DNA from: Cecembia rubra
GTDB lineage: Bacteria; Bacteroidota; Bacteroidia; Cytophagales; Cyclobacteriaceae
Length of the DNA stretch: 64,000 bases
Direction: 5' to 3'
Assembly: GCF_003014575.1 (NCBI RefSeq)
Contig: NZ_PYGF01000001.1
Location: 868,001-932,000, forward strand
Below the pieces are notes generated by a model, which was not told the origin of the DNA, searched no databases, and worked only from the letters and a program-made list of their open reading frames with translations. Below, piece by piece: positions 1,428-23,777 of the stretch (positions are counted from its first letter, which is position 1; the number at the start of each line of letters is the position of its first letter). The position numbers and the translations under genes are program-made.

Positions 1428-2188
1428 GAAAAATATTCCTTTTGCTGGCAGGATTGTTTTTGATAAACAATGCATCTGCCCAACAAAGTAATATGGCACT
1501 GGTAAAGGGGGGAATTTATACCCCCCTCTACGGGATAGTTGAACAATCCGAGGTAAAAATCAGAGATTTCTATATGGATATTAATCCTGTTACTTATGCT
1601 GATTACCTGGAATTTGTCAACAAAAATCCCAAATGGCAGAAATCCAAAGTTTCCAAATTATTTGCAGATGGAAGGTATTTGTCCAATTGGGAAAATGACT
1701 TTTCTGCCCCCAAAGAATTTTTGGACAAACCTGTGACCATGGTCTCTTGGTTTGCCGCCAAAGCCTATTGCGAATGCCAAGGCAAAAGACTTCCCACAGT
1801 GGACGAATGGGAATATGCTGCAATGGCCTCAGCAAGCAAAAAAGACGCAAGAACAGATATTTTATATAACCTTTCCATCCTTAGAAGTTATGAAGAGCCA
1901 AAAACCTTTATGAAATCAGTGGGGCTGTCTAAAGGTAATTTTTGGGGAATAAAAGATATGCATGGAATGGTTTGGGAATGGACTCAGGACTTCAATTCCA
2001 TCATCCTGACAGGTGAATCCCGCAATAACGGCAATACTGATGCTGGATTATTCTGTGCCAGCGGTGCCATTGGTGCTAAGGACATGATGAATTACGCGGC
2101 ATTTATGCGCTATGCCATGAGGACAAGTTTGAAAGCCAATTACTCCATCACCACCTTGGGATTTAGGTGTGCAAAAGATACTCCATAA
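1424..2188 (+). CDS. nirV: NirV-like formylglycine-generating-enzyme family protein
   Basis: A 254-residue exported protein (signal peptide ending near ASA-QQ, residue 19-20) of the FGE/SUMF1 fold. Visible landmarks are the early strand MALVKGGIY, the KRLPTVDEWEYAA motif, GNFWGIKDMHGMVWEW and the closing LGFRCAKD. The one Cys in the region where true FGEs carry their catalytic pair is in LFCASGA; a second catalytic Cys is not apparent, so formylglycine formation is doubtful. Genes of this type commonly sit directly behind nirK and are called nirV, with a role in nitrite reductase maturation or function that is not established. The start overlaps the nirK stop by four bases, so the two are translationally coupled. 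Confidence 0.82.
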   Translation: MRKIFLLLAGLFLINNASAQQSNMALVKGGIYTPLYGIVEQSEVKIRDFYMDINPVTYADYLEFVNKNPKWQKSKVSKLFADGRYLSNWENDFSAPKEFLDKPVTMVSWFAAKAYCECQGKRLPTVDEWEYAAMASASKKDARTDILYNLSILRSYEEPKTFMKSVGLSKGNFWGIKDMHGMVWEWTQDFNSIILTGESRNNGNTDAGLFCASGAIGAKDMMNYAAFMRYAMRTSLKANYSITTLGFRCAKDTP

Positions 2189-2217
2189 TTATCATCAGAA
2201 TATTCTTTGAATCCAAT

Positions 2218-2808
2218 ATGAAATACACACATCTTATCCTCATTATATTTCTGCTGTTTTCCTGTCAAGAAAACAGCACAATAGATTACCAAATCACAGA
2301 GATAGATCAACTCGACGAATTATCGATATACCAATTGCCATCCGAATGGAAAACCCAATACGGAGAAAGCATTGAATTCAAAAATCTCAAGGGAAAAACA
2401 TTAGTGGTTGTCATGATTTATACCTCTTGCAAAACTGCTTGTCCCAGACTTGTAGCTGATATGAGGATGATTGAAGAAAAAGTGACCGGAAAGAAAGGAA
2501 AAGATATACAATATGTCCTCGTGAGCATAGACCCCAAAAATGATACGCCTGAAAAATTGAAAGCTTTTGCTAAGGAAAATGGCCTGGAAGATCAAAAATG
2601 GCTGTTTTTACAGGGAAATGAAGATGACGTCAGGGATTTTGCAAATATCATGTCTGTAAAATACAAACAGATCAGCCCCATTGATTTCTCCCATTCCAAT
2701 ATCATTTCTGTATTTGATAAACATGGAGTGATGAAGTTCCAAAAAGAAGGATTAGGACTGGAAAATGATGAAATCGTGGAAAATATTCTGGCCATTGCAA
2801 AGCTTTGA
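2218..2808 (+). CDS. SCO1/SenC family copper chaperone lipoprotein
   Basis: A 196-residue thioredoxin-fold protein of the SCO family. The ATG at 2218 is preferred over one at 2167 because it gives a clean lipoprotein signal (hydrophobic stretch, then LLFSC) and avoids overlapping nirV. The copper-binding CKTACP motif (CxxxC) and the later His in DFSHSNIISVFD are both present, as is the DPKNDTPEKLKAF segment typical of the family. SCO proteins deliver copper to the CuA site of cytochrome oxidase. Here the position behind nirK-nirV suggests copper supply or redox maintenance for the nitrite reductase, while haem A synthase downstream would fit oxidase assembly, so either client is possible. Confidence 0.9.
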   Translation: MKYTHLILIIFLLFSCQENSTIDYQITEIDQLDELSIYQLPSEWKTQYGESIEFKNLKGKTLVVVMIYTSCKTACPRLVADMRMIEEKVTGKKGKDIQYVLVSIDPKNDTPEKLKAFAKENGLEDQKWLFLQGNEDDVRDFANIMSVKYKQISPIDFSHSNIISVFDKHGVMKFQKEGLGLENDEIVENILAIAKL

Positions 2809-2902
2809 GTCAAAGTAAAGCCACTTACTTCAACTTTCATATGCCTGATACTGAAGATAATAAGACCTTACTGGAAATAAGATTATCCTGGATTTACCCT
2901 AC

Positions 2903-3940
2903 TTAATTCGAACTGCTTGTTTTTTTCAATAAAGCAACTAAAACCAGAAGCAGCAGAACTGCTCCAAGTTGATGCAAAACACCCAAGCTGATGGGAACAG
3001 CCCAAATCAGCGTCAATACCCCAAGAAAAAACTGAATACCTATCAAAATCAATAAAAGGTTGGCAGTTTTAATTAACCTTACATGATGTTTTTTGATCTT
3101 CCACCATAGCCAAATAACTCCTAATAGAACCAAATAGGCCAAATAGCGATGGACGAATTGTACAACTATACCATTTTCAAACAAAGAAGAAATACCGCTT
3201 ATTTCAAAAGCAGTCTTGAGGTCTGAGGGAATCCATGACCTGCCCATCTTTGGAAATGTATTGTACATTTTTCCTGCCTTTAATCCCGCCACAAAAGCTC
3301 CATAAATTATCTGTATAGCCAATATAAGCATTACAGCTATTGTCGCCTGTTTGGTGTCAAAAGATCGGTGTTTTTTAAACGGCTTCCACTCCAAGGCTAC
3401 CCAATAGATATAAGCCGCCAAAGCCAATGCTGTGGAAAGATGGGCGGCCAATCGGTAATGGCTGACATGTGGTATATCAACTAAACCGCTTTTTACCATG
3501 TACCAACCTAAAAACCCCTGAAAGAGCCCTCCGCAAAAAATCAAAATGACCTGCCTTTTCATTCTACGGTCAAAGGCTCCTTTGAGCCAGAAGAAAGCTC
3601 CGGGAATTAAAAATACCAATCCCACTATCCTGCCGATCAATCTATGCAGGTATTCCCAGAAATATATCTTTTTAAATTCAGACAAGCTAAAATGACTGTT
3701 GAACACCTTAAATTCCGGACTGGTCTGATAATCTGCGAACTCCTTTTGCCATTGCTTTTCAGTCAAGGGAGGGATAGTTCCCATAATGGGTTCCCAACGG
3801 ACCATGGACAAGCCTGAGAGGGTAAGCCTAGTGATCCCTCCTATCACTACCAACAATAGAACTAGGACCACACCAGACATCAGCCAAGTATGAATTGATT
3901 TTTGGTATTTTACTTGTGGATCAAGGGGTCCAAGTAGCAT
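2903..3940 (-). CDS. ctaA: Haem A synthase (CtaA/COX15)
   Basis: A 345-residue integral membrane protein with about eight hydrophobic helices in two four-helix halves. It oxidises the C8 methyl group of haem O to the formyl group of haem A for aa3-type oxidases. Family hallmarks include GGITRLTLSGLSMVRWEP near the N terminus, the EYLHRLIGR histidine, HVSHYRLAAHLS, VQFVHRYLAYL and the C-terminal LGVLHQLGA. It is convergent with the SCO gene. Its start region overlaps the 3' end of queD by 20 bases, so both are probably on one transcript. It implies that the organism makes a haem A terminal oxidase in addition to denitrification enzymes. Confidence 0.95.
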   Translation of the reverse strand: MLLGPLDPQVKYQKSIHTWLMSGVVLVLLLVVIGGITRLTLSGLSMVRWEPIMGTIPPLTEKQWQKEFADYQTSPEFKVFNSHFSLSEFKKIYFWEYLHRLIGRIVGLVFLIPGAFFWLKGAFDRRMKRQVILIFCGGLFQGFLGWYMVKSGLVDIPHVSHYRLAAHLSTALALAAYIYWVALEWKPFKKHRSFDTKQATIAVMLILAIQIIYGAFVAGLKAGKMYNTFPKMGRSWIPSDLKTAFEISGISSLFENGIVVQFVHRYLAYLVLLGVIWLWWKIKKHHVRLIKTANLLLILIGIQFFLGVLTLIWAVPISLGVLHQLGAVLLLLVLVALLKKTSSSN

Positions 3941-4328
3941 AACATGTGGCTGTTTCGTATAGGTTAAGACTTTCTAAATTTACTTTTGGGGGTAATTTGG
4001 GAATAATCCTGTCTTTGATCCAAAGCAACATCCGTTCTGCTGTGGGTTCATCATCCATCCATAAGATCTTTTGGTCGAAACCTCCAAAATCCAATCGGTT
4101 TTTTTCGTTTTCTTTCAGGATTAATGCATGGTCGAATTGACTGATAACACCTTCCTGTAAAATACTTTTCAGCAATTTGAAGTCCAACAACATGTCATTT
4201 TCAAGCTCTTTGCCAGAAACAGTTACATGCAGCACATAACTATGTCCATGTACCTGACAGCAGGGCCCATCGTAATCCGTAATGCGGTGGGCCGATTCGA
4301 AGGTAAAAATCTTTGTAATGCTAAGCAT
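3921..4328 (-). CDS. queD: 6-carboxytetrahydropterin synthase (QueD/PTPS family)
   Basis: Converts 7,8-dihydroneopterin triphosphate to 6-carboxytetrahydropterin in queuosine precursor synthesis. The start at 4328 (MLSITKIFTFESAHRI) is chosen because the family begins with this strand; the 26 residues upstream in frame look unlike it. Zinc-ligand histidines are in FESAHRI and VHGHSY, the catalytic Cys lies in GPCCQVHGH, a FDHALIL motif follows, and the late LYETATCY glutamate is present. At 135 residues it is normal length. The stop codon lies inside the start of ctaA. No other queuosine genes are nearby. Confidence 0.9.
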   Translation of the reverse strand: MLSITKIFTFESAHRITDYDGPCCQVHGHSYVLHVTVSGKELENDMLLDFKLLKSILQEGVISQFDHALILKENEKNRLDFGGFDQKILWMDDEPTAERMLLWIKDRIIPKLPPKVNLESLNLYETATCYATWTP

Positions 4329-4490
4329 AGTTGATATTTTGGTCCAATATGGCATTGACGGTTGAATCTCCCAAGTGATGACTTTTAGGCCTTTTCCCAT
4401 GACCATAAGTATTGAAATCCAAAACCACTCAGGAGAATTTCAGTCAGTTAATTTGTCCAATTCTGCACTCAGATATTAATTTTAAACTTT

Positions 4491-5438
4491 TTATTTTGAC
4501 AGTTCCAGCATCCGCATAAGTGGATGGAGAGCTTCTTGCTGTATATTGGGATCCAGGACAATTTCCGGATTTTCATACAAGAGACAATTATAAAGTTTCT
4601 GTAAGGTATTGACTTTCATAAAGGCACATTCGCTGCAAGCGCAGGTATTGTCCTCGGCAATAGGAATTGGTATTAAAACTTTTTCCGGAGCTTTTTTTGC
4701 CATTTGGTGAATGATTCCTGATTCTGTACCTATGAGAAATTCATTGGACTCATCTTCCTGGACAAACCTGATCATACCCGAAGTGCTTCCAATATAATCA
4801 GCTATTTTTAAGAGTGGGAAATCGGCCTCTGGATGGACAAGGATTTTTGCATTGGGATACAAAACCATCAAATCCATGACCTTTTCAAGAGAAAAAGCCT
4901 CATGGACGACACAGGATCCGTTCCATAATTTTATATCCCTCCCGGTCTTAGCAACTAGATATTTCCCAAGATTTTTATCTGGTGAAAAATATATCTTCTT
5001 GGTTTTTGGGATTGAATCAATGATTTTTTCAGCATTGGAAGAGGTGCAAATTATATCTGACATGGCCTTGACCTCAGCAGAACAATTTATGTAGGTTACA
5101 AAAACATGATCTGGATTTAAAGCTTTCTCCCTTTTAAATGCTTCAGGTGTACATGAGTCTGAAAGAGAACATCCGGCTCCCAGGTCGGGTATGAGGACTT
5201 TTTTCTTTGGATTAATGATCTTTGCCGTTTCTCCCATGAAATGCACTCCTGCAAATACGATAATAGAGGAATCGGTTTCCATTGCTTTTCTGGAAAGCTC
5301 AAGGCTGTCCCCAACAAAATCAGCGACTTCCTGGATTTCGGGTGATTGGTAATAATGGGCAAGGATTACAGCATTTTTTTCCTTCTTGATAGCTGTAATC
5401 ATATTATGCAAGGTGTTCTCTGATGATCCAGGTAGCAT
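4491..5438 (-). CDS. nadA: Quinolinate synthase NadA
   Basis: A 315-residue [4Fe-4S] enzyme that condenses iminoaspartate with dihydroxyacetone phosphate to quinolinate in NAD synthesis. Visible motifs: AVILAHYYQSPEIQEVADFVGDS at the N terminus, VHFMGETAK, the three cluster cysteines in YINCSAEVK, WNGSCVVHE and the CACSECAFM segment, and PDKNLGKYLV. Length and motif order match the family. No nadB or nadC is in this window. The 198 bases between its start and narK on the other strand form a divergent promoter region. Confidence 0.96.
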   Translation of the reverse strand: MLPGSSENTLHNMITAIKKEKNAVILAHYYQSPEIQEVADFVGDSLELSRKAMETDSSIIVFAGVHFMGETAKIINPKKKVLIPDLGAGCSLSDSCTPEAFKREKALNPDHVFVTYINCSAEVKAMSDIICTSSNAEKIIDSIPKTKKIYFSPDKNLGKYLVAKTGRDIKLWNGSCVVHEAFSLEKVMDLMVLYPNAKILVHPEADFPLLKIADYIGSTSGMIRFVQEDESNEFLIGTESGIIHQMAKKAPEKVLIPIPIAEDNTCACSECAFMKVNTLQKLYNCLLYENPEIVLDPNIQQEALHPLMRMLELSK

Positions 5439-5586
5439 TTGATTTACTTTTTACTGACTTTTAGAAACTGTGATCCAATTCTAAAGGACTTGTTTTTAAT
5501 TATATCAATTTAGAGGACAAATTTATCCTTTACAAAATTATCAACAGGGCCATTTGAATCATAGTTTTATATGACTTTCGTCAGGT

Positions 5587-5614
5587 TTTGCCCTAGCGGG
5601 CTTCGGTACCTTTG
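5587..5614 (+). promoter_or_regulatory. Candidate promoter of the narK-nitrate reductase operon
   Basis: TACCTTTG at 5607-5614 matches the Bacteroidota -7 consensus TAnnTTTG, with TTTG at 5587-5590 as a possible -33 element. The 16-base spacer is shorter than the usual 19 or so. A small GCCC/GGGC stem lies within the spacer. Transcription would start about 20 bases before the narK ATG at 5637. No convincing FNR-type TTGAT-N4-ATCAA site was found in the interval. Confidence 0.35.
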
Positions 5615-5636
5615 TCCCCAATAAAATCAAGAAACT

Positions 5637-6977
5637 ATGGCTACATGGCTCAAAGAATGGAATCCTGAGGATAACAACTTCTGGGAATCCACAGGAAAAA
5701 AAATCGCCTGGCGTACCCTAAGCATCACTACTATTGCATTGACATTGTCTTTTGCAACTTGGTTTATGATGAGTGCTATTGTCACAAGGCTGCCTGGTGT
5801 TGGATTTCAGTTCACCGACAACCAGCTTTTTTGGCTGGCAGCTTTACCAGGTCTAGCGGCAGGGACACTGAGGATTGTCCATACCTTTTTGATTCCTATT
5901 TATGGGACCAGGCACACGATTACCATAGCTACATTAATCAAGCTCATTCCGGTCATAGGAATCGGATTGGCGGTGATGAATCCCGGTACACCCTTTTGGA
6001 TATTTGTAGTATTGGCCCTTACGGCCGGATTTGGAGGAGGTGATTTTTCTTCATTCATGCCCTCTACCAATATGTTCTTCCCTGCCAGATTGAAGGGCAC
6101 TGCATTGGGTATTCAGGCAGGTCTAGGGAACTTCGGTGTAAGTATTGCACAATTTATGACACCAATTATGATTGGGGTGGCCTTATATGGAGCTCCACAG
6201 CTTTTCAAAAGCGTAGATAAGGTGACGGGAGAAAGTATTACTAAGGAAATCTATTTACAAAGTGGTGCTATGTGGTATGCTCCCCTACTGATCATTATAG
6301 CAATTATTAGCTGGAAATACCTTAAAAGCATACCCATCAAAGCTTCTTTCAAAGAACAGCTGGATATTTTCAGAGATAAACATACTTGGTATTGTACCAT
6401 TACCTACTTCATGACATTTGGTACATTTGCAGGCCTTTCGGCTGCATTCCCGCTCTTGATGAAGGTACTTTATGGTAACTTCGACCCTAGCTTGGATCCA
6501 TTAAAATATGCCTTTTATGGACCATTGATCGGTTCAGCTTCAAGGATTCTTTTTGGCTTTGTTGCAGACCGTACCGGTGGTGCAGTATTAACCACTATTA
6601 CAGGCATTGGGCTTTTGGCCAGTGTTGCCGTAATGCTATCATTTGGCTTGGTCAATCCCACAGGAATGGAGCAATTTCCAATGTTTGTCGGCACCATGAT
6701 GGCCTTGTTTTTTTTCACTGGAATTGGAAATGCCTCGACTTTTAGACAATTTCCTATTATATTTAAGCATAACCCCAGGCAAGCAGCGGGTGTAATAGGC
6801 TGGACGGCAGCCATTGCTGCCTACGGTCCATTCATATTCTCACTATCTCTTGGTGCCTTTATCGGAAGCACTGGAAATGCAGAAGGCTTTTTCTGGATAT
6901 TGGGAGTTTTCCTTGTGATCGCAACCCTTATTAACTGGTACTTCTACGATAGGAAGGGCTCAGAAAGGCCATCGTAA
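5637..6977 (+). CDS. narK: Nitrate/nitrite transporter NarK (MFS, NNP family)
   Basis: A 446-residue, roughly 12-helix transporter. The two glycine-rich nitrate signatures are present: QAGLGNFGVSIAQF in the first half and FFTGIGNASTFRQFP in the second. The GTRHTITI cytoplasmic loop and the ASRILFGFVADRTGG stretch are also typical. It should import nitrate to the cytoplasmic reductase encoded behind it and/or export nitrite to periplasmic NirK. It is first of six same-strand genes; the next begins 31 bases after its stop. It differs from the second NarK at 13774 in lacking the large periplasmic insert. Confidence 0.93.
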   Translation: MATWLKEWNPEDNNFWESTGKKIAWRTLSITTIALTLSFATWFMMSAIVTRLPGVGFQFTDNQLFWLAALPGLAAGTLRIVHTFLIPIYGTRHTITIATLIKLIPVIGIGLAVMNPGTPFWIFVVLALTAGFGGGDFSSFMPSTNMFFPARLKGTALGIQAGLGNFGVSIAQFMTPIMIGVALYGAPQLFKSVDKVTGESITKEIYLQSGAMWYAPLLIIIAIISWKYLKSIPIKASFKEQLDIFRDKHTWYCTITYFMTFGTFAGLSAAFPLLMKVLYGNFDPSLDPLKYAFYGPLIGSASRILFGFVADRTGGAVLTTITGIGLLASVAVMLSFGLVNPTGMEQFPMFVGTMMALFFFTGIGNASTFRQFPIIFKHNPRQAAGVIGWTAAIAAYGPFIFSLSLGAFIGSTGNAEGFFWILGVFLVIATLINWYFYDRKGSERPS

Positions 6978-7008
6978 CCGATTCAAAGTAACTAACCATA
7001 ACCACAAT

Positions 7009-8064
7009 ATGCTCAAGCTTTTCCAAACCCTTAATAAGGTAGCATTTATTAAAGCTACCATTGCTGCCTTAGCAGTTGTTATTTTGGTTTTTATAGGTTC
7101 CAGAAACTTACAGAATTTTGATGCTGCATTGATAACCTATCTTTTCGGTACAGTATTCGCGGTTTTTGGTATTGCTTATAGATATTCAGTCTGGCTTCAA
7201 AGACCACCTACAAGGCTTTACTGGCGAAGAAGTATGCAGTTTCTGTTCAGTAAAGACTTCTTAACTTATGCTACCAGGTCTATATACCTACTGTTCCGAA
7301 ATATCCTTTTCCAAAGGTTTATAGCATACAGAAGTAAAACCCGCTGGTGGGGGCATTTCCTTTTGGCTTCCGGCTGTCTGATTTCGTTTGCCATTACAAT
7401 TCCTCTGACTTTTGGATGGATCCATTTCACGCTTGAACCCGGCACTTATGATATCTATAATGCCAACTTCTTCGGATTTAAAGTTGCCTCCTTTGAATTA
7501 GGGGGACCTATTTCCATACTGGCCTTTAAAGCCCTGTTTTTCACATCCATACCGGTCATCATTGGTGCTATCATTATGATGAAGAGAAGGGTTAAAGATG
7601 GGGGTTTGATTGCTACCCAATCATTGGATGGAGATTGGCTTCCTTTGGTATTATTGATTGCCATTTCAGTCACAGGACTGGGAATTGGTTATGATTATAC
7701 TTTTCTGGAAGGAAGAACCCATCAATTTATGGCTGTGACACATGCCATTACAGTAATACTCTTCTTGATCTGGATGCCTTTTGGCAAATTCTTTCACATT
7801 TTCCAAAGATTGGCCCAATTGGGTGCCAATCTATATAAAATTGAAGGAAGCAAAAGGGGCATGGCAGTATGTCCTCATACGAAAGCAGAGTTTGCTTCAC
7901 AGACACATATTAATGACCTGAAAACAGTCACCAAAGAATTGGGATTTGATTTCACCTTGGCAGATGGTACAAACCACCTTGATCTGTCTCCAGAGGGAAA
8001 AAGATCTGTCCTTGCCAAAGCGCATTTTGAGGCAAGAAAGGCATCAGGAAAATTCTTTGGATAA
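7009..8064 (+). CDS. NarI-like b-type cytochrome membrane subunit
   Basis: A 351-residue membrane protein with about six helices (near 12-30, 38-56, 114-136, 170-191, 209-228, 240-262) and an 85-residue soluble C-terminal tail. His245 and His263 are 18 residues apart on the last helix, the spacing of the NarI haem ligands His187/His205. His116, in [11 protein letters not shown], matches the first NarI ligand, but the position ten residues later is Ser rather than the second His, so perhaps only one haem b is bound. Placed directly before the catalytic subunit (11-base gap), it is the likely quinol-oxidising anchor. The tail contains a CPH motif of unknown role. The assignment to NarI rests on this spacing and context; overall similarity was not computed. 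Confidence 0.7.
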
Positions 8065-8075
8065 AAATCAAAACT

Positions 8076-10292
8076 ATGGCAAAGCTACCTATTTCAGCAG
8101 AAAAGATAATTGATAAATTCGGGCCCAAGAAGCACTACACACCAATGGGAGGCTTTGAAGGTTCCCATGAACCAGACAAATTGGTAAAGACCCATTGTTG
8201 CTTTTGCGCCATGCAATGCGGTATTCAGCTCAAAGTCAAAGATAACAAAATTGCCGGATTTGAGCCTTGGATGGAATTCCCCTTCAACGAAGGCAGACTA
8301 TGTCCAAAGGGTGTACAACGCTACTTGCAAAACAACCATCCGGACCGCCTGCTCCAGCCTTATCAAAGGGTGGAAGGAAAGGGTTTTGAGCCCATCACAT
8401 GGGACAATGCCATGGAACGGACCATCAGTGAAATCCGTCGAATCCAGACCCAATACGGCAATGATTCCTTTGCAATGCTGTCAGGTGTTTCCCTGACCAA
8501 CGAAAAAAGCTACATGGTAGGCAAATTTGCACGCCTTGCCCTCAAAACTAAAAACCTGGATTACAATGGCCGTCTATGTATGGTAAGTGCTGGGGCAGGA
8601 AATAAAAAAGCTTTTGGACTGGACAGAATTTCCAATTCATGGGCAGACCTCAAACATGCAGAGGTCATCATCATTGCCGGGTCAAATGTCAGCGAATGTT
8701 TCCCTACCCTTACGCACTACATCTGGCAGGCCAGAGACAATGGCGCCAAATTAATAGTAGTTGATCCAAGGGTCACTCCTATAGCCAGAACTGCAGACCT
8801 CCACCTACCGGTGAAGCCTGGACGTGATTCAGCACTATTTGGCGCTATTCTAAAGCAATTGGTGGACAATGATTGGATTGATCACGAATTTATTGAGAAA
8901 CATACCAATGGATTTGAGGCTGCTGCTGAGGCTGTAAAGGATTATGACCTGGATTGGGCTGAAAAGACCACAGGAATTGAAAAAGAAAAAATCCTGCAGG
9001 CTGCTACTTGGTGGGGCAAAGCCAAAACCTCCTTTCTTTTGCATGCCAGAGGTATAGAACACCATACCAAAGGGGTGGACAATGTCCTGAGCTGTATCAA
9101 TATTGTATTGGCTACTGGAAGGATAGGAAAACCATACTGTGGTTATGGCACCATTACAGGTCAAGGTAATGGACAGGGAGGTAGAGAACATGGACATAAA
9201 TGTGATCAGCTACCCGGAAACAGAGATATCAGCAATCCTGAACACAGGAAATATATCGCTGAGGTTTGGGGAGTTGAAGAAAAAGAAATCCCAGGTATGG
9301 GCCTCTCTGCCTATGAAATCATAGAAGCCATCCACCGTGGAGAAATCAAAGGTCTGATCAGCATTTGCTTCAATCCGATTGTTTCCCTGCCCAATAACAA
9401 TTTTGTAAGGGAAGCATTTGAAAAATTGGAGTACTATGTCGCCATAGATTTTTTCCTCAACGAAACAGCAAGACATGCGGATGTGATTTTGCCGGGCTCT
9501 CTCCATGAAGAAGAAGAAGGTACAGTCACTACAGCAGAGGGCAGAGTGGTCAAAATCAACCAAGCCATTGATCCTCCGGGAGAGGCTAGAAAAGACAGTG
9601 ATATCCTGATTGAAATGGCAAGGAGACTTGGAGCAGGTGACAAGTTCAATTTTGAAAACTCAGAAGCTGTTTTCAATGAACTTCGTGTCGCTTCCAAAGG
9701 TGGTACTGCAGATTACTATGGCATCAGCTATGAAAAAATAGAGAAGAACATGGGCGTATTTTGGCCATGCCCTTCTGAAGACCATCCGGGAACACCTAGA
9801 CTTTGGGAAGAAAAGAAATCCGCTTTTCCAGATGGAAAGGCCAGGTTCAATCCTGTTGCGTACAAAGAGCCTGCTGAAGTAGTGGATAAAGATTTCCCAG
9901 TAATCCTGACCACAGGAAGAGTTGTCAGCCAATACTTAAGCGGAACCCAAACCAGAAGAATTGGTAAATTGGTCGACCAATATCCAGAACCCCTTTTGGA
10001 AATCCATCCCAGTTTGGCAATTCAATACAATATCCAAAACAGGGATTTGATAACTGTCAGAACGAGGCGTGGTGAGGCTACTTTTCCTGCCCAAATTGTA
10101 GAGACTATCCGACCTGATACTGTTTTCATCCCTTATCACTGGGGAGGAAGCCATTCAGCCAACCAACTGACTGTGGGTGACCTAGACCCTATTTCAAAAA
10201 TTCCGGAATTTAAGGTATGTGCCTGTCAGCTAATTCCTACCGGAAAAAAAGCAGCACCAGCTGAGGAAAGAAGTGCTTACCAAAGTTCATAA
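8076..10292 (+). CDS. Molybdopterin nitrate reductase catalytic subunit (NasC/NarB type)
   Basis: A 738-residue molybdopterin oxidoreductase that should reduce nitrate to nitrite. An N-terminal [4Fe-4S] site is formed by Cys41, Cys44, Cys48 and Cys76. The likely molybdenum ligand is Cys168 in [10 protein letters not shown], as in assimilatory and periplasmic nitrate reductases, not Asp as in Nar[40 protein letters not shown] and the closing [13 protein letters not shown] are family features. No twin-arginine signal is present, so it should be cytoplasmic. It lacks the C-terminal [2Fe-2S] domain of proteobacterial NasA. Companion genes (ferredoxin, Rieske, cytochrome b) point to a quinol-linked complex, and the nirK/Moco context favours nitrate over formate as substrate. 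Confidence 0.88.
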
Positions 10293-10312
10293 ACCACAAA
10301 ATCTACCTTGTT

Positions 10313-10882
10313 ATGACAGTAACCAAATACGACCAGCAAATGGGCTTTTTCATAGACATGCAGCGCTGTATTGGCTGCCATGCCTGCGAAATGGCTTGTG
10401 CTGAATGCGAAACCAACGGTCAGGAAAGCATGATCCATATTCATTATGTGGAAAGGGCCGTCTCCACACAAACTACCGTGCAGGTGTGCATGCATTGTGA
10501 AGACCCTGCCTGTGCCAATGTCTGTCCAGCAGATGCCATATCCAAAGATGAATTTGGAGTAGTACATACTGCCGAAACATCCAGATGTATAGGTTGCTCT
10601 AACTGTGTCCTTGCATGTCCATTTGGTGTTCCCCAAAAACAGGAAAAAGCAGAGCTCATGATGAAATGCAACATGTGCTATGACAGAACTTCTGCGGGTA
10701 AAAAACCAATGTGTGCAACAGTATGTCCAAGTGGTGCGCTGTTCTTTGGGACTAGAGAAGAAATTGAACTTAAAAGGCCTGACAGTGTGCCTGTAGATAC
10801 CTTTATTTTCGGAAATCAAGAGGTTAAAACAAAAGTTAAAATCATGATGCCCAAAGGCAGCAATTATTTAAAAGTGCATTAA
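10313..10882 (+). CDS. Four-cluster ferredoxin electron-transfer subunit (DmsB/NrfC-like)
   Basis: A 189-residue iron-sulfur subunit. Sixteen cysteines form four cluster motifs: Cys19/22/25/29, Cys59/62/67/71, Cys92/95/98/102 and Cys119/122/134/138, with an extra Cys32. The order with a widened fourth motif is that of DmsB, PhsB and NrfC-type subunits. It should carry electrons from the membrane cytochrome or Rieske protein to the molybdopterin subunit encoded 20 bases upstream. No Tat signal is present, which agrees with a cytoplasmic location for both. Such a subunit is unusual for assimilatory Nas enzymes and argues for a respiratory, quinol-linked role. Confidence 0.9.
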
Positions 10883-10894
10883 TCACCGCTATTT

Positions 10895-11407
10895 ATGAAA
10901 AAAGACAATTCAGATATAACCCCAAAATGGAAAAATGATTTTCCATTTGACAAGGAAGAAGCTACCCATGTCTCCAGAAGAGAGTTTGCAAAATTCCTTA
11001 CGCTATTTTCTGGTGCTTTAGCTTTGGGCAATGGTGCCATCGTACTCAAAAGCATTGCCTTCCCGGAAAAAGAATTGGAAGGTCAGCATTTTATCTGTGA
11101 AGAAAATCAGTTGCCCATGGGTGAAATGTTGCAGTTCGACATAGAAGGAGATAAAGTCATTCCTTATATTCTGATCCATTTGGAAGATGGACAATGGAGA
11201 GCTTTTGAGCAAAAGTGCACCCATTTGGCATGTGCAGTCATTTATAGGAAAGATTTGGATCTGATAGAATGTCCTTGTCATAAAGGTTATTTTGATCCAA
11301 GGACTGGAGTAGTTACACAAGGACCTCCACCACGGCCCTTACCCCAATTGGACGTGGTAGTAGAGAATGGAAAAGTGTTTGTCAAAGCAAAAAGCCATAA
11401 AGCCTAA
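10895..11407 (+). CDS. Tat-exported Rieske [2Fe-2S] protein
   Basis: A 170-residue membrane-anchored Rieske protein. The N terminus has a twin-arginine motif, SRREFAKFL (Arg28-Arg29), before a hydrophobic helix (about 33-53). Cluster ligands are Cys108 and His110 in CTHLAC, and Cys126 and His129 in CPCHKG. Cys113 and Cys128 can form the disulfide found in bc1/b6f-type, high-potential Rieske proteins. PPPRPLPQ follows. It lies 12 bases behind the ferredoxin gene and 5 before the small membrane protein. No bc1-type cytochrome b is encoded here, so it probably works with the NarI-like protein. Its presumed periplasmic side contrasts with the cytoplasmic catalytic subunit. Confidence 0.92.
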   Translation: MKKDNSDITPKWKNDFPFDKEEATHVSRREFAKFLTLFSGALALGNGAIVLKSIAFPEKELEGQHFICEENQLPMGEMLQFDIEGDKVIPYILIHLEDGQWRAFEQKCTHLACAVIYRKDLDLIECPCHKGYFDPRTGVVTQGPPPRPLPQLDVVVENGKVFVKAKSHKA

Positions 11408-11412
11408 TCACT

Positions 11413-11667
11413 ATGAGCAATTTTAGATATTCTCAAAAAGAAGCACACCCAAATAAAACCAATACCCTAATGACAGGTATTATCCTTTTACTTGTTTTAT
11501 TGGTGAGCATTCAGATTTGGTTTCTTTATTCTGCTTTGAACAATGCCTTGACAGACAACTTTAACATAGCTGTTGGCACATTCATCGGATCCTTGGTTTT
11601 ATTCATTACTGCGGCTTGGCTTTTGCGTTATTTGCCGGAACCCAGAAAGCCAAGAATTAAGGAATAA
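11413..11667 (+). CDS. Small two-helix membrane protein of the nitrate reductase operon
   Basis: An 84-residue protein with two hydrophobic segments (about 20-41 and 52-70) and a basic, proline-containing tail. The start is five bases after the Rieske stop and a terminator follows, so it is the last gene of the operon. No catalytic or cofactor motif is visible. It may stabilise or assemble the membrane part of the reductase, but that is only inferred from position. The family was not recognised with certainty. Confidence 0.8.
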   Translation: MSNFRYSQKEAHPNKTNTLMTGIILLLVLLVSIQIWFLYSALNNALTDNFNIAVGTFIGSLVLFITAAWLLRYLPEPRKPRIKE

Positions 11668-11719
11668 TACCTATTGTCTCAATATCAAAACGAAGACTCA
11701 AATTCAAACATAAACCTTT

Positions 11720-11748
11720 CAGAAAAGTCCATTTGGGCTTTTCTGTTT
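11720..11748 (+). terminator. Rho-independent terminator after the nitrate reductase operon
   Basis: Eleven paired bases (11720-11730 with 11735-11745, one G-T pair), a four-base loop and a short T tract. It separates the reductase genes from moeA, implying separate or read-through expression of the cofactor genes. Confidence 0.75.
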
Positions 11749-11783
11749 AATTTAGCTTCGTTTATCCATTTTCACTTCAAATA

Positions 11784-12962
11784 ATGATTTCAGTAAACCA
11801 GGCAAAGGATATTTTAAAAGCTACTGTTTCAACTGGAGAGATTAAACATCTCCCCCTTTCAAAAACGTTGGATTTAATAGCAGCTGAAGACATCTTCTCT
11901 CCCATTGAGGTCCCCTCTTTTGATAATTCTGCTATGGACGGGTATGCAATTACTTGGGAGGATAATTTAGATACTTGGGAAATAACAGATGTAATTGCCG
12001 CTGGAAACGGGAAACAACATCAACTTCAATATGGTAAAGCTGGTAGAATTTTTACCGGTGCTCCGCTACCTAAAGGATCTGACACCGTAATTCCTCAGGA
12101 ATTTGTTCATCGGGAAGGAAACCTTATTAGAATAATAGATAAGGGTAAATTCCAAAAAGGCAGCAATGTAAGGTTTAAGGGTGCACAGACAAAAACCGGG
12201 GAAGTCATTTTAAAAAAAGGTAGCCAAATTACCCCTGGAACCATTGGTTTACTGGCCTCTGTGGGAATATCTGAAGTACCAGTATTTTCTCCACCAAAGG
12301 TAGCCATTATCATTACCGGCAATGAATTACAGGAGATTGGAAAACCTTTGGCTTTTGGACAAATCTATAATTCTAACCGTCCGGTATTGGAATCCTATCT
12401 CAAGAAACTTGGAATCCAAGATATCTTATCCTATCAAGCTGAAGATGAACCTAAAGCCACCCAAAAGATCATAGAAGAAGCTTTAGCAAAAGCAGATTTG
12501 GTATTACTGACGGGAGGTATTTCTGTGGGGGATTATGACTTTGTGAAAAATGGCTTAGAAAATGCCGGTGTAAAGGAGTTGTTTTATAAAATCAGGCAAA
12601 AACCCGGAAAACCATTATTTGCAGGAAAAAAAGGGAGGCAAATGGTATTTGCTCTACCTGGAAATCCTGCATCAGTAATTACCTGCTTTAATCAATATGT
12701 CAGACCATCCCTGTTACAATGGATGGGGCATACATCTTCCTGGAGTGCCCATGAAGTCCTGCCAATAGCAAATGACTTCATACGGAATGCTGGACTAACC
12801 TTTTTCCTAAAGGCAAAAGTGGAACATGGAGTAGTACATATTCTGAACGGGCAAGAATCCTTTAACCTGATTTCTTTTGGTTCTGCCAATTGCCTTGCAG
12901 AAATACCGGAAGAAATTGAACAGTTGAAAGCAGGGGAAAAAATTGCCGTTTATTACTGGTAA
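11784..12962 (+). CDS. moeA: Molybdopterin molybdenumtransferase MoeA
   Basis: A 392-residue enzyme that inserts molybdate into adenylated molybdopterin. Landmarks are PSFDNSAMDGYAI near the N terminus, GRIFTGAPLPKGSDTVIPQE, LLTGGISVGDYDFVK in the central MoCF fold, and ALPGNPASVITCF. The C-terminal beta domain is complete. A weak promoter-like pair (TTTG at 11732, TAGCTTCG at 11753) precedes it but overlaps the terminator. With mobA and the moaC-mog fusion downstream it supplies cofactor to the nitrate reductase encoded just upstream. Confidence 0.95.
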   Translation: MISVNQAKDILKATVSTGEIKHLPLSKTLDLIAAEDIFSPIEVPSFDNSAMDGYAITWEDNLDTWEITDVIAAGNGKQHQLQYGKAGRIFTGAPLPKGSDTVIPQEFVHREGNLIRIIDKGKFQKGSNVRFKGAQTKTGEVILKKGSQITPGTIGLLASVGISEVPVFSPPKVAIIITGNELQEIGKPLAFGQIYNSNRPVLESYLKKLGIQDILSYQAEDEPKATQKIIEEALAKADLVLLTGGISVGDYDFVKNGLENAGVKELFYKIRQKPGKPLFAGKKGRQMVFALPGNPASVITCFNQYVRPSLLQWMGHTSSWSAHEVLPIANDFIRNAGLTFFLKAKVEHGVVHILNGQESFNLISFGSANCLAEIPEEIEQLKAGEKIAVYYW

Positions 12963-13140
12963 TCCATTGATAATAAGACCAAAAAGCTAATTTTCATTTA
13001 ACCGGTTAACATAGGAAAACTTAACCAATGAAATTATTCTTGTTTCAAAATGATAATGGATATAGAACATTGTAATAGGTTTACAAAACACTGAAAATCA
13101 AGTATTTAATTGTGGTGAATTATCATTTATAGAAAATAGC

Positions 13141-13737
13141 ATGGATGATTTGAGTATTTACATCTTGGCAGGGGGAAAAAGCAGACGCATGGGTCAGGAT
13201 AAAGGTCTCATCGACCTCCTAGGAAAGCCTATGATCAAGCATATGCTGGACCGAGTGAGTATCTTAAACCTTCCAATAAAGATTGTAGCTCACCATGATC
13301 AATATAAGCAATTTGGTTTTCCGGTAATCAAAGACCTAATACCTGAAAAGGGACCATTGGGCGGACTTTATACCTCTTTGTGTGATGCCGTTTCAAAATT
13401 TGTGCTCTTAATGAGCTGTGACATGCCTTTTCTAAGCCTTGAGGTCATAAAAGCGCTAATTGCGCAAAAAAAGGATAATACGATTATCATTTCGGAACTG
13501 CACAATAATATTCTTCCTTTTCCAGGAATCTATCCGGCAAATCTTCGTCAGATTATCCATTTACATCTTCAAAATGAAAGATTGAAATTCCAGCAATTTA
13601 TCCTCAGCACAGCTCATCTGAAGATCAACCTGGACGAAGAATATCAAAATCAACCTGAAATTTTCCAAAATATCAACAGTCCCCAAGACAAGGAGAAGGC
13701 CACGGCTTGGAGGGATAATAGACTTAAAAAAAATTAA
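13141..13737 (+). CDS. mobA: Molybdenum cofactor guanylyltransferase MobA
   Basis: A 198-residue nucleotidyltransferase that joins GMP to Mo-molybdopterin, giving the bis-MGD cofactor needed by the NasC-type subunit. The N-terminal nucleotide-binding motif LAGGKSRRMGQDKG is intact, followed by EKGPLGGLYTSL and LLMSCDMPFLS. Length is normal for the family. A 178-base AT-rich gap separates it from moeA; the second narK follows 36 bases after its stop. Confidence 0.92.
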   Translation: MDDLSIYILAGGKSRRMGQDKGLIDLLGKPMIKHMLDRVSILNLPIKIVAHHDQYKQFGFPVIKDLIPEKGPLGGLYTSLCDAVSKFVLLMSCDMPFLSLEVIKALIAQKKDNTIIISELHNNILPFPGIYPANLRQIIHLHLQNERLKFQQFILSTAHLKINLDEEYQNQPEIFQNINSPQDKEKATAWRDNRLKKN

Positions 13738-13773
13738 TCAGCCCATCTACTTCCATACCAAAAACCACAGACT

Positions 13774-15276
13774 ATGCAAGAAAATATCAATTCCTTATCT
13801 TATAGAATGCTCTTCTTAAATACATTGGCATTCACTATTTGTTTTGCTGTTTGGACTTTTAACGGTGTAATGGTCACCTACCTTGTTGATAACAGTATTT
13901 TTGAGTGGGGACCGGTAGAAATTGGTTGGTTGCTAGGAATTCCTATCCTTACCGGTGCTGTATTGAGGTTACCATTAGGAATTATTACTGACAAATATGG
14001 GGGGAAATGGATATTTGCTGGCCTATTGCTGTTTTGTGCCATTCCAATGTATTTGATTGCTTATGTGGACAGCTTTATTTTTTATGCTATTTTAAGCTTT
14101 TTCTTTGGATTTGCTGGTGCTGGATTTGCTGTAGGTATTGGCTATACTTCTGTATGGTTTCCCAAAAATTGGCAGGGAAGGGCTTTGGGTATTTTCGGTG
14201 CCGGAAATGCCGGAGCAGCGCTGACTACGCTTTTGGCTCCTACCCTTTTGAACAGGTTCACTGACCATGGTTCCAACCCGGAAAACTGGCGGCTATTGCC
14301 CCAGTACTATGCCGGAGTGCTAGTATTGATGGCCTTTATATTTATTTTGTTCTCAGTAAATAAGAAGACCGGAGCACCTGCCCGCACTATGGGCCAGATC
14401 TTAAAACCACTACAAAGTATCCGCGTTTGGAGGTTTGGTTTCTATTATTTCCTTGTTTTTGGTTGTTTCATTGCATTTGCACAGTGGTTGGTGCCTTATT
14501 TTGTAAATGTCTATGGGGCAAGTTTGGTAGTAGCAGGGCTTTTTGCCTCACTATTTTCATTCCCTTCCGGGGTAATTAGGGTATTGGGAGGATGGATGAG
14601 TGACAAAATTGGAGCCAGGAGGGTCATGTTGGGCACATTCCGCTGGTCAGTGATCTTGGCAGCCCTTTTGATGGTACCTCGGATGGATATCATAACACCG
14701 GGTAAAGGAATTATGGCTGAAAGAGCAGGCCAGGTCCAATCAGTAAGTGACCGTGAAATTATAGTAGAGGAAAAAAGCTATGGATTGGCATCCAAAGCTT
14801 TGGCCAATCAAAAAATGGAAGATCCTAATACCTTGGCATCATTCCTGCCCCAAAAATATAATTGGCAGGAACCCGTAGTTACCGAAGGCCAACAAGTAGT
14901 TAAAAAAGAATTGCTTGCTAAAGGAGTGACACAGATTTCTTTTGAAGCCAATATGTGGGTTTATGCCATTCTCGTACTTTTGATCGGTATCGTCTGGGGA
15001 ATTGGAAAAGCAGGTGTTTACAGGTTTATACCAGATTACTTCCCAAATGAAGTGGGCACTGTAGGTGGTATGGTAGGCGTCATCGGTGGCCTTGGAGGGT
15101 TTGTCTGCCCAATCCTCTTTGGTTACCTACTTGATTGGACAGGTCTCTGGACGAGTAGTTGGATCCTGATGTTTATCTTATCTGTACTTTGCCTATATTG
15201 GATGTTGCAGGTGACCAGAAAACTAATCAAAGCAGAATCCCCTGAAATAGCCAATAAAATTGATCGGGTGAAATAG
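13774..15276 (+). CDS. NarK-type nitrate/nitrite transporter with periplasmic insert
   Basis: A 500-residue MFS protein. TM1-TM2 and the DKYGGKW loop, the GRALGIFGAGNAGAALT nitrate signature in TM5, and GIGKAGVYRFIPDYFP in TM10 place it in the NNP family. Between TM9 (about 285-302) and TM10 (about 394-415) there is a hydrophilic insert of about 90 residues (304-393) that topology places in the periplasm. NarK proteins normally have a short loop there. It is close to mobA and likely in the same transcript. Two distinct NarK types suggest a split of nitrate/proton symport and nitrate/nitrite exchange, but the split cannot be assigned from sequence. Confidence 0.88.
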   Translation: MQENINSLSYRMLFLNTLAFTICFAVWTFNGVMVTYLVDNSIFEWGPVEIGWLLGIPILTGAVLRLPLGIITDKYGGKWIFAGLLLFCAIPMYLIAYVDSFIFYAILSFFFGFAGAGFAVGIGYTSVWFPKNWQGRALGIFGAGNAGAALTTLLAPTLLNRFTDHGSNPENWRLLPQYYAGVLVLMAFIFILFSVNKKTGAPARTMGQILKPLQSIRVWRFGFYYFLVFGCFIAFAQWLVPYFVNVYGASLVVAGLFASLFSFPSGVIRVLGGWMSDKIGARRVMLGTFRWSVILAALLMVPRMDIITPGKGIMAERAGQVQSVSDREIIVEEKSYGLASKALANQKMEDPNTLASFLPQKYNWQEPVVTEGQQVVKKELLAKGVTQISFEANMWVYAILVLLIGIVWGIGKAGVYRFIPDYFPNEVGTVGGMVGVIGGLGGFVCPILFGYLLDWTGLWTSSWILMFILSVLCLYWMLQVTRKLIKAESPEIANKIDRVK

Positions 15277-15489
15277 AAAGATATTAAATTTCATTTAACC
15301 TTATTGAACCTATTTCTTGAAGAATTGTCATCAGGAAATATACTGGAAACAGGTAATTTCGTAGGCTAATCAATTGAAAAAATGTAAACCTCTTCCTAAT
15401 GGAATTTGATTAATCCTGAATCTAGGGTCCAGTACAATGAATCTAACTTCATTCCAGAATTCTGGCCTCTCAATTTTAATTACTGAAAA

Positions 15490-16407
15490 ATGATCAACAT
15501 CACACATAAATCCAACACCTTAAGAAAAGCCATTGCCCAGGCCATAGTAAAGGTGAGTTCCCAGGAAACCATTCAAGCTGTAATTGAAAAGAAGGTTCCA
15601 AAAGGAGATGTCTTTGAAATGGCCAAAGTCGCAGGATTATTTGCAGCAAAGAGGACTGCGGATATGATTCCTGACTGTCATCCATTACCGGTAGAATTCA
15701 CAGCAGTCAGTTATGAAATCAAAGACTTACAAATTTTCATTTTTGTTGAAATCCATACCATTTACAAAACAGGCGTAGAAGTAGAGGCCATGCATGCGGC
15801 CTCAGTAGTGGCTTTGACGATGTATGATATGCTCAAGCCATTGGATAAAGGAATCAGTATTGAGCAAATTAAACTGATAGAGAAAAAAGGAGGCAAAACT
15901 GATTTTTCAAAAGAAAACATTCAGGTTCTTAAAGCGGCTGTCATTGTATGTTCCGATTCTATAGCTGCCGGAAAGAAGGAAGACAGTGCAGGAAAAGCCA
16001 TCATCAGAAAACTTGAAAATTCCAAGGTACAAATCCACGATTATCTTGTCATCCCTGATGAAGTAAACGAGATACGGAATCGGTTAAACCAATATGTGGA
16101 ACAAAAAGTCAATATGGTCATTTTTACAGGAGGAACGGGACTTTCACCTAGAGATGTAACTCCTGAAGCCATCAAGCCGCTCCTAAAAACAGAAGTACCT
16201 GGAATTGAGGAAGCTATAAGGGCTTACGGTCAGCAAAGAACCCCCTACTCCATGTTATCCCGTTCTGTTGCAGGATTGATTGGCAAAACCCTTGTTCTTG
16301 CATTACCGGGATCTACAAAAGGAGCAGAAGAATCCATGGATGCTATTTTCCCTGCTATCTTGCATATTTTTAGGGTCATGGAGGGGCCGGCTTTTAGGCA
16401 TGAATGA
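15490..16407 (+). CDS. Bifunctional MoaC-MogA/MoaB molybdenum cofactor protein
   Basis: A 305-residue fusion. Residues 1-137 are MoaC (cyclic pyranopterin monophosphate synthase): the Lys in VPKGDVFEMAKVAG, MIPDCHPLP, VEAMHAASVVALTMYDM and the Lys four residues on (MLKPLDK) match the catalytic set. Residues 145-305 are MogA/MoaB (molybdopterin adenylyltransferase): VIVCSDSIAAGKKEDSAG, FTGGTGLSPRDVTPEA and ALPGSTKGAEES. The fusion joins an early and a late step of cofactor synthesis. moaA, moaD, moaE and moeB are not in this window. It is 213 bases behind the transporter. Confidence 0.93.
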   Translation: MINITHKSNTLRKAIAQAIVKVSSQETIQAVIEKKVPKGDVFEMAKVAGLFAAKRTADMIPDCHPLPVEFTAVSYEIKDLQIFIFVEIHTIYKTGVEVEAMHAASVVALTMYDMLKPLDKGISIEQIKLIEKKGGKTDFSKENIQVLKAAVIVCSDSIAAGKKEDSAGKAIIRKLENSKVQIHDYLVIPDEVNEIRNRLNQYVEQKVNMVIFTGGTGLSPRDVTPEAIKPLLKTEVPGIEEAIRAYGQQRTPYSMLSRSVAGLIGKTLVLALPGSTKGAEESMDAIFPAILHIFRVMEGPAFRHE

Positions 16408-16808
16408 ACTTGGAGATTATGAAATTGGTTAAGTTGTGGGTCTAGGGCTTGTTGGCTTAATGGATTACCTAGTTAAGAAATGGTTGATTAGACAATTGAG
16501 GGTATAGTTGTAGAGTAAATGTATTTCTGAAATACTAACAAAATAGCTATTTATTCAAAAGGGTCTCATTTTGATTCTTCAAGCGATCCATACAAGCTAA
16601 AAAATTTGAGAGGTTAAAAATCATAAGGGAGTGGGGATTGTGGTATAACTGCAAATCTCCCTCCCTTTCCAACTTTAATAATCCTCCAGTTTCTTTGCTG
16701 TAAAGGCCAGTTGTTAATCTTAGACATTCTGTCACAAACCAGTTCATAGGATTTAAGAAATTGGAAGAGTTCCATCAACTTACAAGCAACATAAAAAAAA
16801 CAGAATTG
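16408..16808. other. 401-base intergenic stretch, no gene recognised
   Basis: AT-rich spacer between the moaC-mog fusion and the methyltransferase. Two short overlapping minus-strand frames (66 and 71 codons) run through it but have no recognisable motif and no homologous feel. No strong hairpin or tRNA-like fold was seen. Confidence 0.5.
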
Positions 16809-17423
16809 ATGGCAGTAACAAAGGACCACTGGGAAAATGTATATGAAACTAAGGATACCACAAAAGTTGGTTGGTTCCAGGAAAAACCAATTGTTTCTCT
16901 CGATCTAATTGAAGAATTCAGGATTAACAAAAATTCAGCTATCTTAGATGTAGGAGGTGGTGACAGTTTATTGGTTGATCATTTGTTGGCCTTAGGTTAT
17001 AAGGATATATCTGTCCTTGACATTTCTTCCACCTCTTTGAAAAAAGCGAAAATAAGGTTGGGGGAAAATGCAGATAAAATCGAATGGATACATTCAGATA
17101 TTATAGATTTTAATCCGGATCGGAAATATAATGTTTGGCATGACAGGGCTGTTTTCCATTTTTTGATGGATAAAGAAAAAATCGACATCTACCTTAAAAT
17201 TTCATCCCTGCATATTAAACCGGGAGGATGGCTGTTTATTGGGGTCTTTTCAGAAACCGGACCAGAAACCTGCAGCGGACTTCCAGTCCAAAGGTATTCA
17301 ACAGTAGCACTGGCAGAAACTTTTAGCATGTCCTTTGATTGCGTAAAAAGTTTTAATACGGATCACATTACCCCTTCCGGCGTAACTCAAAACTATAGTT
17401 TCTGCTGTCTCAAAAGGAAATAA
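16809..17423 (+). CDS. Class I SAM-dependent methyltransferase
   Basis: A 204-residue methyltransferase. The ATG at 16809 (MAVTKDHWENVYETKD) is preferred over the in-frame codon at 16761 because the family begins with the HWENVY segment. The SAM-binding motif is ILDVGGGDSLLVDHLL, followed by the acidic SVLDISS at the end of beta-2 and WIHSDIIDF. WHDRAVFHFL and KPGGWLFIGVFS are typical of small-molecule methyltransferases related to the thiopurine/tellurite group. The substrate cannot be inferred. Stop and next gene are 131 bases apart. Confidence 0.85.
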   Translation: MAVTKDHWENVYETKDTTKVGWFQEKPIVSLDLIEEFRINKNSAILDVGGGDSLLVDHLLALGYKDISVLDISSTSLKKAKIRLGENADKIEWIHSDIIDFNPDRKYNVWHDRAVFHFLMDKEKIDIYLKISSLHIKPGGWLFIGVFSETGPETCSGLPVQRYSTVALAETFSMSFDCVKSFNTDHITPSGVTQNYSFCCLKRK

Positions 17424-17554
17424 ATGGACTATCAGCTCCGGATAAATTTTGAATAAGGCTGAAAAGTAACAATTCTCACAAAAACCGAATTAGAAATTGC
17501 TGAATTTTGTCTTATAATTTCAAACAAAACGAAAAATCAAAACAGAAATAGCAT

Positions 17555-20263: not shown

Positions 20264-20264
20264 A

Positions 20265-22295: not shown

Positions 22296-22305
22296 TGCTT
22301 TTGAA

Positions 22306-23772: not shown

Positions 23773-23777
23773 GTTTC

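Follow-up and report, generated by a model that had tools for sequence, protein, structure and literature searches.

A predicted quinol-dependent nitrate reductase of mixed parentage in Cecembia rubra, encoded by a gene module conserved in three phyla

A NasC-type catalytic subunit within a conserved module

In the 64,000-nucleotide stretch of the Cecembia rubra genome analysed here (contig NZ_PYGF01000001.1, positions 868,001 to 932,000; hereafter the window), six forward-strand open reading frames (ORFs) at positions 5637–11667 probably encode a respiratory nitrate reductase, bound to the membrane and dependent on quinol, that would serve denitrifying Bacteroidota in place of NarGHI. The operon begins with a NarK-type nitrate/nitrite transporter of 446 residues (5637–6977, assigned by ORF and profile matches) and continues with a NarI-fold membrane cytochrome b of 351 residues (7009–8064, assigned by predicted fold and candidate heme histidines), a predicted molybdenum bis(pyranopterin guanine dinucleotide) (Mo-bisPGD) catalytic subunit of the NasC type with 738 residues and one N-terminal 4Fe-4S motif (8076–10292), a DmsB-like ferredoxin of 189 residues with cysteines for four 4Fe-4S clusters (10313–10882), a respiratory-type Rieske 2Fe-2S protein of 170 residues with a twin-arginine translocation (Tat) motif and an N-terminal anchor helix (10895–11407), and an 84-residue DUF6755 protein in which two hydrophobic segments are visible by eye (11413–11667). 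Several features can be read directly from the sequences, namely the parts with their ligands, the conservation of the genes as one unit, and a Tat motif that the Rieske protein has and the catalytic subunit lacks.

The genes are separated by gaps of 31, 11, 20, 12 and 5 nucleotides and are followed by a hairpin resembling an intrinsic terminator (11720–11745), with an 11-pair stem and a T-rich tail. This hairpin is the longest of eight returned by a scan which, with 7.7 expected in shuffled sequence, proves little by itself; the stretch folds with −15.4 kcal/mol (z −4.2), a value equalled in none of 200 shuffles. A sigma-70 promoter scan was uninformative (12 sites, against 17.7 in shuffles). 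The transporter scored 269 bits against TIGR00886 (cut-off 311.7) and 272 bits against the NarU model (cut-off 836), in both cases below the cut-off. An earlier first-pass annotation of the window had described six tightly spaced genes ending in a terminator, and coordinates, strand, spacing and hairpin were all recovered. Its accounts of a catalytic subunit with a Cys Mo-ligand and no Tat signal, of a four-cluster DmsB-like ferredoxin and of a bc1-type Rieske protein are likewise borne out by the alignments described below; its NarI-like cytochrome holds for the fold, the H-x17-H spacing and three of four heme histidines, the fourth having no counterpart.

A genome scan confirmed at least 560 relatives of the catalytic subunit, the best 80 of which were read; together with the window's own copy (L001), a locus (L005) lying at the same place as another one of the set (L028) and three Deinococcus plasmids, they make up 85 loci. 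The neighbourhood search suggested by the first-pass annotation found the genes for the cytochrome, Mo subunit, ferredoxin, Rieske protein and DUF6755 protein all present, in the same order and on the same strand, in 83 of the 85 loci, while the remaining two (L076 and L081) are one gene short each, at a contig end. Beyond that annotation, the arrangement is a conserved module in three phyla rather than a one-off, its hosts belonging by record title to the Bacteroidota, Verrucomicrobiota and Deinococcota. A chance adjacency of separate systems, given this conserved five-gene order, has a negligible probability, no observation in its favour, and was dropped. Distances between the subunits correlate with r between 0.94 and 0.97 (69 loci), part of which is expected from the shared ancestry of the hosts. 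A NarK-family ORF is found in 72 of the 85 loci, in 59 of them on the same strand within 1.5 kb, and Mo-cofactor genes of any kind occur in 46. Of the 13 loci in which a NarK ORF is missing, several are short, and short loci, such as L001 and L005 with only 5.2 kb, conceal neighbours. After merged or cut ORFs had dropped out, the family alignments comprised 84 rows for the Mo subunit, 78 for the cytochrome, 72 for the ferredoxin, 78 for the Rieske protein and 70 for DUF6755.

Among plasmid records, four of the 1343 matching ones were more than 60% identical in the catalytic subunit, all of them from Deinococcus. In the three Deinococcus copies the Mo subunit is 61–63% identical and NarK follows the module instead of preceding it; the records annotate the catalytic gene as 'molybdopterin oxidoreductase family protein' and the cytochrome as 'MFS transporter'.

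The best named NCBIfam model for the catalytic subunit is NasC (859 bits, cut-off 1100), ahead of the alpha subunit of formate dehydrogenase (FDH-alpha, 610 bits), both scores lying under their cut-offs; in a survey of 31 module genomes (that of the window and 30 hand-picked carriers, not a random draw), none of 32 entries reached the curated NasC cut-off. The Mo-ligand Cys168 is present in 84 of 84 aligned rows, the window's own included, at the position at which NarG-type subunits carry an Asp ligand. None of these rows has a twin-arginine motif (RRx[FLI]) within the first 45 residues, and we infer from this that the catalytic subunit is a cytosolic enzyme. In a tree of 29 rows, obtained by a quick search with support from the Shimodaira–Hasegawa-like approximate likelihood ratio test (SH-aLRT) only, the module clade joins the NasC-type rows of Paenibacillus, Mycobacterium, Streptomycetaceae and D. 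gobiensis (SH-aLRT 100), apart from NapA, NasA and four formate dehydrogenase rows; the NasC rows, which group together with a support of 80, form its sister.

That the enzyme acts on another substrate, as a formate dehydrogenase or a reductase of a different oxyanion, appears very improbable. Formate dehydrogenases are at the top of the solved relatives found by PDB sequence search, with no NasC, NasA or NarB among the matches listed, and the FDH-alpha score points the same way. However, all 16 module rows in the tree have R-L-C-M (Cys-Met) at the Mo-ligand and a NasC-type loop (13 residues, not shown), whereas the four formate dehydrogenase rows have Cys-His or Cys-Gln plus RGQNN or RGHNN (the selenocysteine of E. 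coli FdhF was entered as C in the alignment). The formate dehydrogenase identity, which the first-pass annotation had named as the finding that would speak against its proposal, was rejected because of the Cys-Met residues at the active site and the grouping of the subunit with NasC in the tree, and the linkage to NarK also argues against another substrate.

The ferredoxin has 17 invariant Cys in 72 of 72 rows, sufficient for four clusters, and scored 51.8 bits against the narH model (cut-off 524). In the Rieske protein, the cluster ligands C108, H110, C126 and H129, the disulfide pair C113/C128 and the twin-Arg motif are each invariant in 78 of 78 rows, and because of this invariance the protein is probably redox-active and periplasmic, on the side of the membrane opposite to a catalytic subunit without Tat motif. 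Its N-terminal helix spans residues 28–54. By profile, its closest solved relatives are respiratory Rieske proteins, the best being that of Chlorobaculum (64 bits), which is also the top fold match; AioB is among the fold matches, and the Rieske fold is also common to dioxygenase ferredoxins. The 84-residue protein matches Pfam family PF20540 (DUF6755) with 35.1 bits, above the gathering score of 27.

The cytochrome b protein matched no Pfam family at E ≤ 0.001 and matched the QmoC model weakly (27.5 bits, cut-off 300), and a profile search of the PDB returned NarI first (E 0.009). Its AlphaFold model (pLDDT, the predicted local distance difference test, 81) was compared with solved structures by VIA-align, in which eight NarI chains lead (Z 11.6–11.8 over 179–190 residues); the best of them reaches Z 11.8 over 188 residues, followed by EtfD (10.7), and unrelated rows do not exceed 9.2. 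In the last membrane helix, H245-x17-H263 aligns with H187-x17-H205 of NarI, and H116 pairs by eye with H56, which leaves three conserved candidate heme histidines (116, 245 and 263) for the four heme ligands of NarI (H56, H66, H187 and H205). Residue 174 (window 7528–7530), early in the helix after that of H116, is His in 73 of 78 relatives and could act in place of H66 in ligating the outer heme; Lys is found instead in the window and in Lunatimonas, and Asn in L036, L073 and L081 of the Verrucomicrobiota. Two Deinococcus copies (among them L002:7774-8886) have four Cys in the C-terminal tail of the cytochrome, in a zinc-ribbon-like arrangement, and the two Bacteroidota copies aligned with them have one. 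The cytochrome ORF of a Flavobacteriaceae genome seems broken (L060:7856 onward) and was omitted from the alignment used for the model.

Nitrogen genes and nitrate phenotypes of the carriers

Searches of the genome of the window (4.75 Mb, 99.97% complete) found neither NarG (E ≤ 1e-50) nor NapA (E ≤ 1e-100) and no second NasC-like enzyme (E ≤ 1e-20), which makes the operon the candidate nitrate reductase if the cell reduces nitrate. Genes for NirK and nitric oxide (NO) reductases lie within about 17 kb upstream of the operon. The copper nitrite reductase NirK, which bears a cytochrome c domain, is encoded at 12–1427 on the forward strand (TIGR02376, 337 bits, above the cut-off). The 19 kb 5' of the window hold norC, norB, norQ, norD, an ORF of 780 residues resembling qNor, an Rrf2-type regulator, an NnrS-like ORF and an FNR-type regulator, where COX1-family matches mark two NO-reductase ORFs and the remaining names were given by eye; norCBQD and the qNor-like gene lie close together just 5' of the window, with the Rrf2-type regulator between them (L112:8505-17875).

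In the 31 module genomes, no NapA scored above the cut-off, and NirK is found in 20, in 19 of them above the cut-off. The PF00033 cytochrome b is absent from 30 of the 31, the window's genome among them, and present in one, other cytochrome-b models not having been searched. A second NasC/NasA-like frame of 1166–1200 residues is present in 17 of the 31 (in two with one internal stop) and resembles in length a Persicobacter row that groups with NasA in the tree. This suggests a division of labour, with assimilation by the NasA-like frame and respiration by the module.

Phenotypes are available for Cyclobacterium, in which two of 12 genomes carry the module, those of C. plantarum (L016) and C. 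jeungdonense (L014). According to its description, C. plantarum reduces nitrate and nitrite and forms gas from nitrate, and Table 4 there lists nitrate reduction as positive for C. plantarum and C. jeungdonense and negative for C. lianum, C. halophilum and C. xiamenense (PMC7232363); the three negative species are assumed to be among the ten genomes without the module. The phenotypes agree with a nitrate reductase, on the basis of five species whose two carriers also have the NasA-like frame.

An assimilatory role, in which the nitrite would serve ammonium synthesis and the membrane partners would merely deliver electrons, is improbable in our view. NasC being the best named model fits such a role, as do a SUMT-like (siroheme) ORF in the Mo-cofactor cluster of 23 of the 85 loci, all Flavobacteriaceae by title, and a NasA-like frame about 14 kb away in the genomes of L072 and L039. 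Yet assimilation does not usually involve a quinol-linked membrane chain, and more than half of the surveyed genomes keep a separate NasA-like frame. The sole NIR/SIR-family gene of the window's genome, one 704-residue frame with two domains, lies amid genes recognised by eye as sulfate assimilation, no gene for a NirB/NasB donor is found among those scanned at window positions 12–18958, and none of the recurrent neighbour families (at least five loci, named by eye) contains a protein of NirB length. The nearby NirK and Nor genes and the gas formed from nitrate by a carrier (PMC7232363) also argue against assimilation.

Proposed electron path and the role of the Rieske protein

Nitrate as the substrate, quinol as the donor and assembly into a single complex are what we infer from these parts. 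The best-supported reading remains that of the first-pass annotation, a quinol-dependent nitrate reductase built from parts of several families and feeding NirK, and we propose the following hypothetical sequence of events in which (i) NarK would exchange nitrate for nitrite; (ii) the NarI-fold cytochrome would oxidise menaquinol at a site on its periplasmic side, next to the exported Rieske protein; (iii) electrons would pass through the b hemes across the membrane to the four-cluster ferredoxin and on to the cytosolic NasC-type Mo subunit; (iv) this subunit would reduce nitrate to nitrite in the cytosol; and (v) nitrite would leave the cell and be reduced by NirK, followed by the NO reductases.

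As the best single guess, the Rieske protein would act at the quinol site as a redox partner. It could form an entry point, handing electrons from quinol or periplasmic cytochrome c on to the b hemes in series, or it could do no more than stabilise the quinol site; such a role, which is a version of the proposed mechanism and compatible with it, is a strong possibility that falls a little short of even. NarGHI operates without any Rieske protein, and in arsenite oxidase, whose AioB is among the fold matches, a Rieske subunit accompanies the Mo subunit; both points speak for a serial or structural role. Less easily accommodated are the complete conservation of ligands, disulfide pair and Tat motif and the location across the membrane from the catalytic subunit. 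Alternatively, the electrons of quinol might be split, one passing to the NarI-like hemes and on to cytosolic nitrate, the other through the Rieske protein and cytochrome c to NirK, which in the window carries a cytochrome c domain of its own, and to cNor. Reducing nitrate to nitrite consumes two electrons, as does the step from nitrite to half an N2O, so that the two halves of denitrification would be supplied exactly by a 1:1 split. Electron splitting is nevertheless doubtful: it is weakened by the carriers in which no NirK match was found (see below) and by the alternative complex III that is common in Bacteroidota and could feed cytochrome c. On priors, we favour a serial or structural Rieske protein over electron splitting.

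Several observations weigh against a respiratory nitrate reductase with a NarI-like cytochrome. The link to NarI is weak by sequence (E 0.009–0.015; hhalign probability 21%), the Z score of 11.8 is below the level of about 13 that VIA-align advises for helical bundles, and a plain Foldseek search with the cytochrome model gave nothing under E 0.001. NarI H66 has no counterpart, the corresponding residue 126 being Ala in 76 and Ser in two of 78 rows, and at position 174, the possible substitute ligand, the window has Lys and three relatives have Asn, exceptions because of which this residue is unlikely to be essential as a heme ligand. An FNR-like palindrome, searched in three forms (TTGA-N6-TCAA and two stricter ones), is absent 5' of the operon; the FNR/NnrR search had three matches elsewhere in the window. 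The module is rare in an even draw: of the 295 genomes that were drawn from the class, two, including that of the window itself, carry a close relative at E ≤ 1e-200. Among the 31 module genomes, one, that of Algoriphagus alkaliphilus (L012), contains narG; another (G314, that of L031) has an 850-residue frame with a strong NapA match below the cut-off (1e-101), perhaps a NapA relative; and 11 have no NirK match at E ≤ 1e-30, so that the product need not always reach NirK. Finally, both Cyclobacterium carriers are among the 17 genomes with the NasA-like frame, which confounds the phenotype match.

The usual markers for nitrate respiration are narG and napA. If the proposed function is true, carriers of the module are scored as unable to respire nitrate when these markers are used, nitrate-respiring Bacteroidota, Verrucomicrobiota and Deinococcota are currently missed, and respiratory nitrate reduction arose a further time, on a catalytic subunit of the assimilatory type. 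A Rieske protein without a bc complex also raises the question of whether the nitrate reductase doubles as complex III; electron splitting, if true, would combine Nar and complex III in one, in genomes without a detected bc-type cytochrome b. A literature search, which covered few subscription journals, returned no description of the module among the entries listed and no paper on DUF6755. Apibacter carries the module (L021/L027), and there is reportedly work on nitrate respiration in Apibacter bee symbionts, which the literature search did not show; part of the biology of the module may already be in print.

The operon is flanked by further genes of nitrate and molybdenum metabolism, all on the forward strand. 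On the 3' side of the terminator follow MoeA (11784–12962) and MoaCB (15490–16407), both for molybdenum cofactor synthesis, with MobA (13141–13737), for synthesis of the Mo-bisPGD cofactor, between them. A second, longer NarK-type transporter of 500 residues (13774–15276) comes after MobA and is outside the terminated operon, and many relatives have two to three NarK-family ORFs per locus. On the 5' side, NirK is followed by an FGE-domain protein and a SCO1 protein, with three opposite-strand genes between them and the operon. This group (window 12–2808), in which NirK with its cytochrome c domain is joined by a SCO1-like and an FGE-sulfatase-domain protein, recurs in L008, L028, L030, L033, L045, L054 and L066; as a guess, the FGE-like protein may have a role in NirK maturation. 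Further downstream, a SusC/SusD-like pair, a PKD-type protein and a laminarinase-like glycoside hydrolase, recognised by eye, form a polysaccharide utilisation locus (19133–26930).

Comparison with known nitrate reductases and quinol-oxidising complexes

With NarGHI, the nitrate reductase A of E. coli, the module shares the predicted layout of a cytosolic Mo subunit, a multi-cluster Fe-S subunit and a cytochrome b of the NarI fold in which a C-terminal helix carries H-x17-H. It differs in that a Cys-ligated NasC-type subunit replaces NarG and a ferredoxin of DmsB size replaces NarH, in the addition of the Rieske and DUF6755 proteins, and in the loss of one heme His of NarI. NarJ is not among the six operon proteins, the rest of the genome not having been searched for it. 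Both systems occur naturally side by side in the genome of A. alkaliphilus, where a true narG lies about 13 kb from the module (G299:C45:139104-157473). The catalytic subunit does not qualify as NapA: 84 of 84 module rows lack a Tat motif, and the NapA model scores under its cut-off (264 against 930 bits).

The cytochrome resembles the NarI-like cytochromes of QmoC and EtfD, with a weak match to the former and a fold match to the latter that ranks second after NarI, but its partner subunits are others and it has no fused Fe-S domain. As in cytochrome bc1/b6f, the Rieske protein of the module has an anchor helix at the N-terminus and a domain with both disulfide Cys, whereas the PF00033 cytochrome b of those complexes is missing from nearly all module genomes, as described above. 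A Rieske protein and a cytochrome b encoded beside a nitrate reductase are also known from haloarchaeal pNar: the narB-narC-narGH genes of Haloferax mediterranei encode the Rieske protein NarB and the cytochrome b NarC together with the nitrate reductase, and Q-cycle coupling has been predicted (PMC2483277). In contrast to that system, with NarG and an active site outside, the catalytic subunit of the module has no Tat motif and its cytochrome is NarI-like, without PF00033.

NasC/NasBC of Bacillota and Actinomycetota share the catalytic subunit family and the active-site motifs, but the module has a membrane electron chain, whereas NasC-type genes adjoin nirB, which encodes an NADH-linked partner, in the three annotated cases read. 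Most likely, the module functions in the manner of NarGHI yet stands outside it by its catalytic and beta subunits, and resembles NasC in catalysis only.

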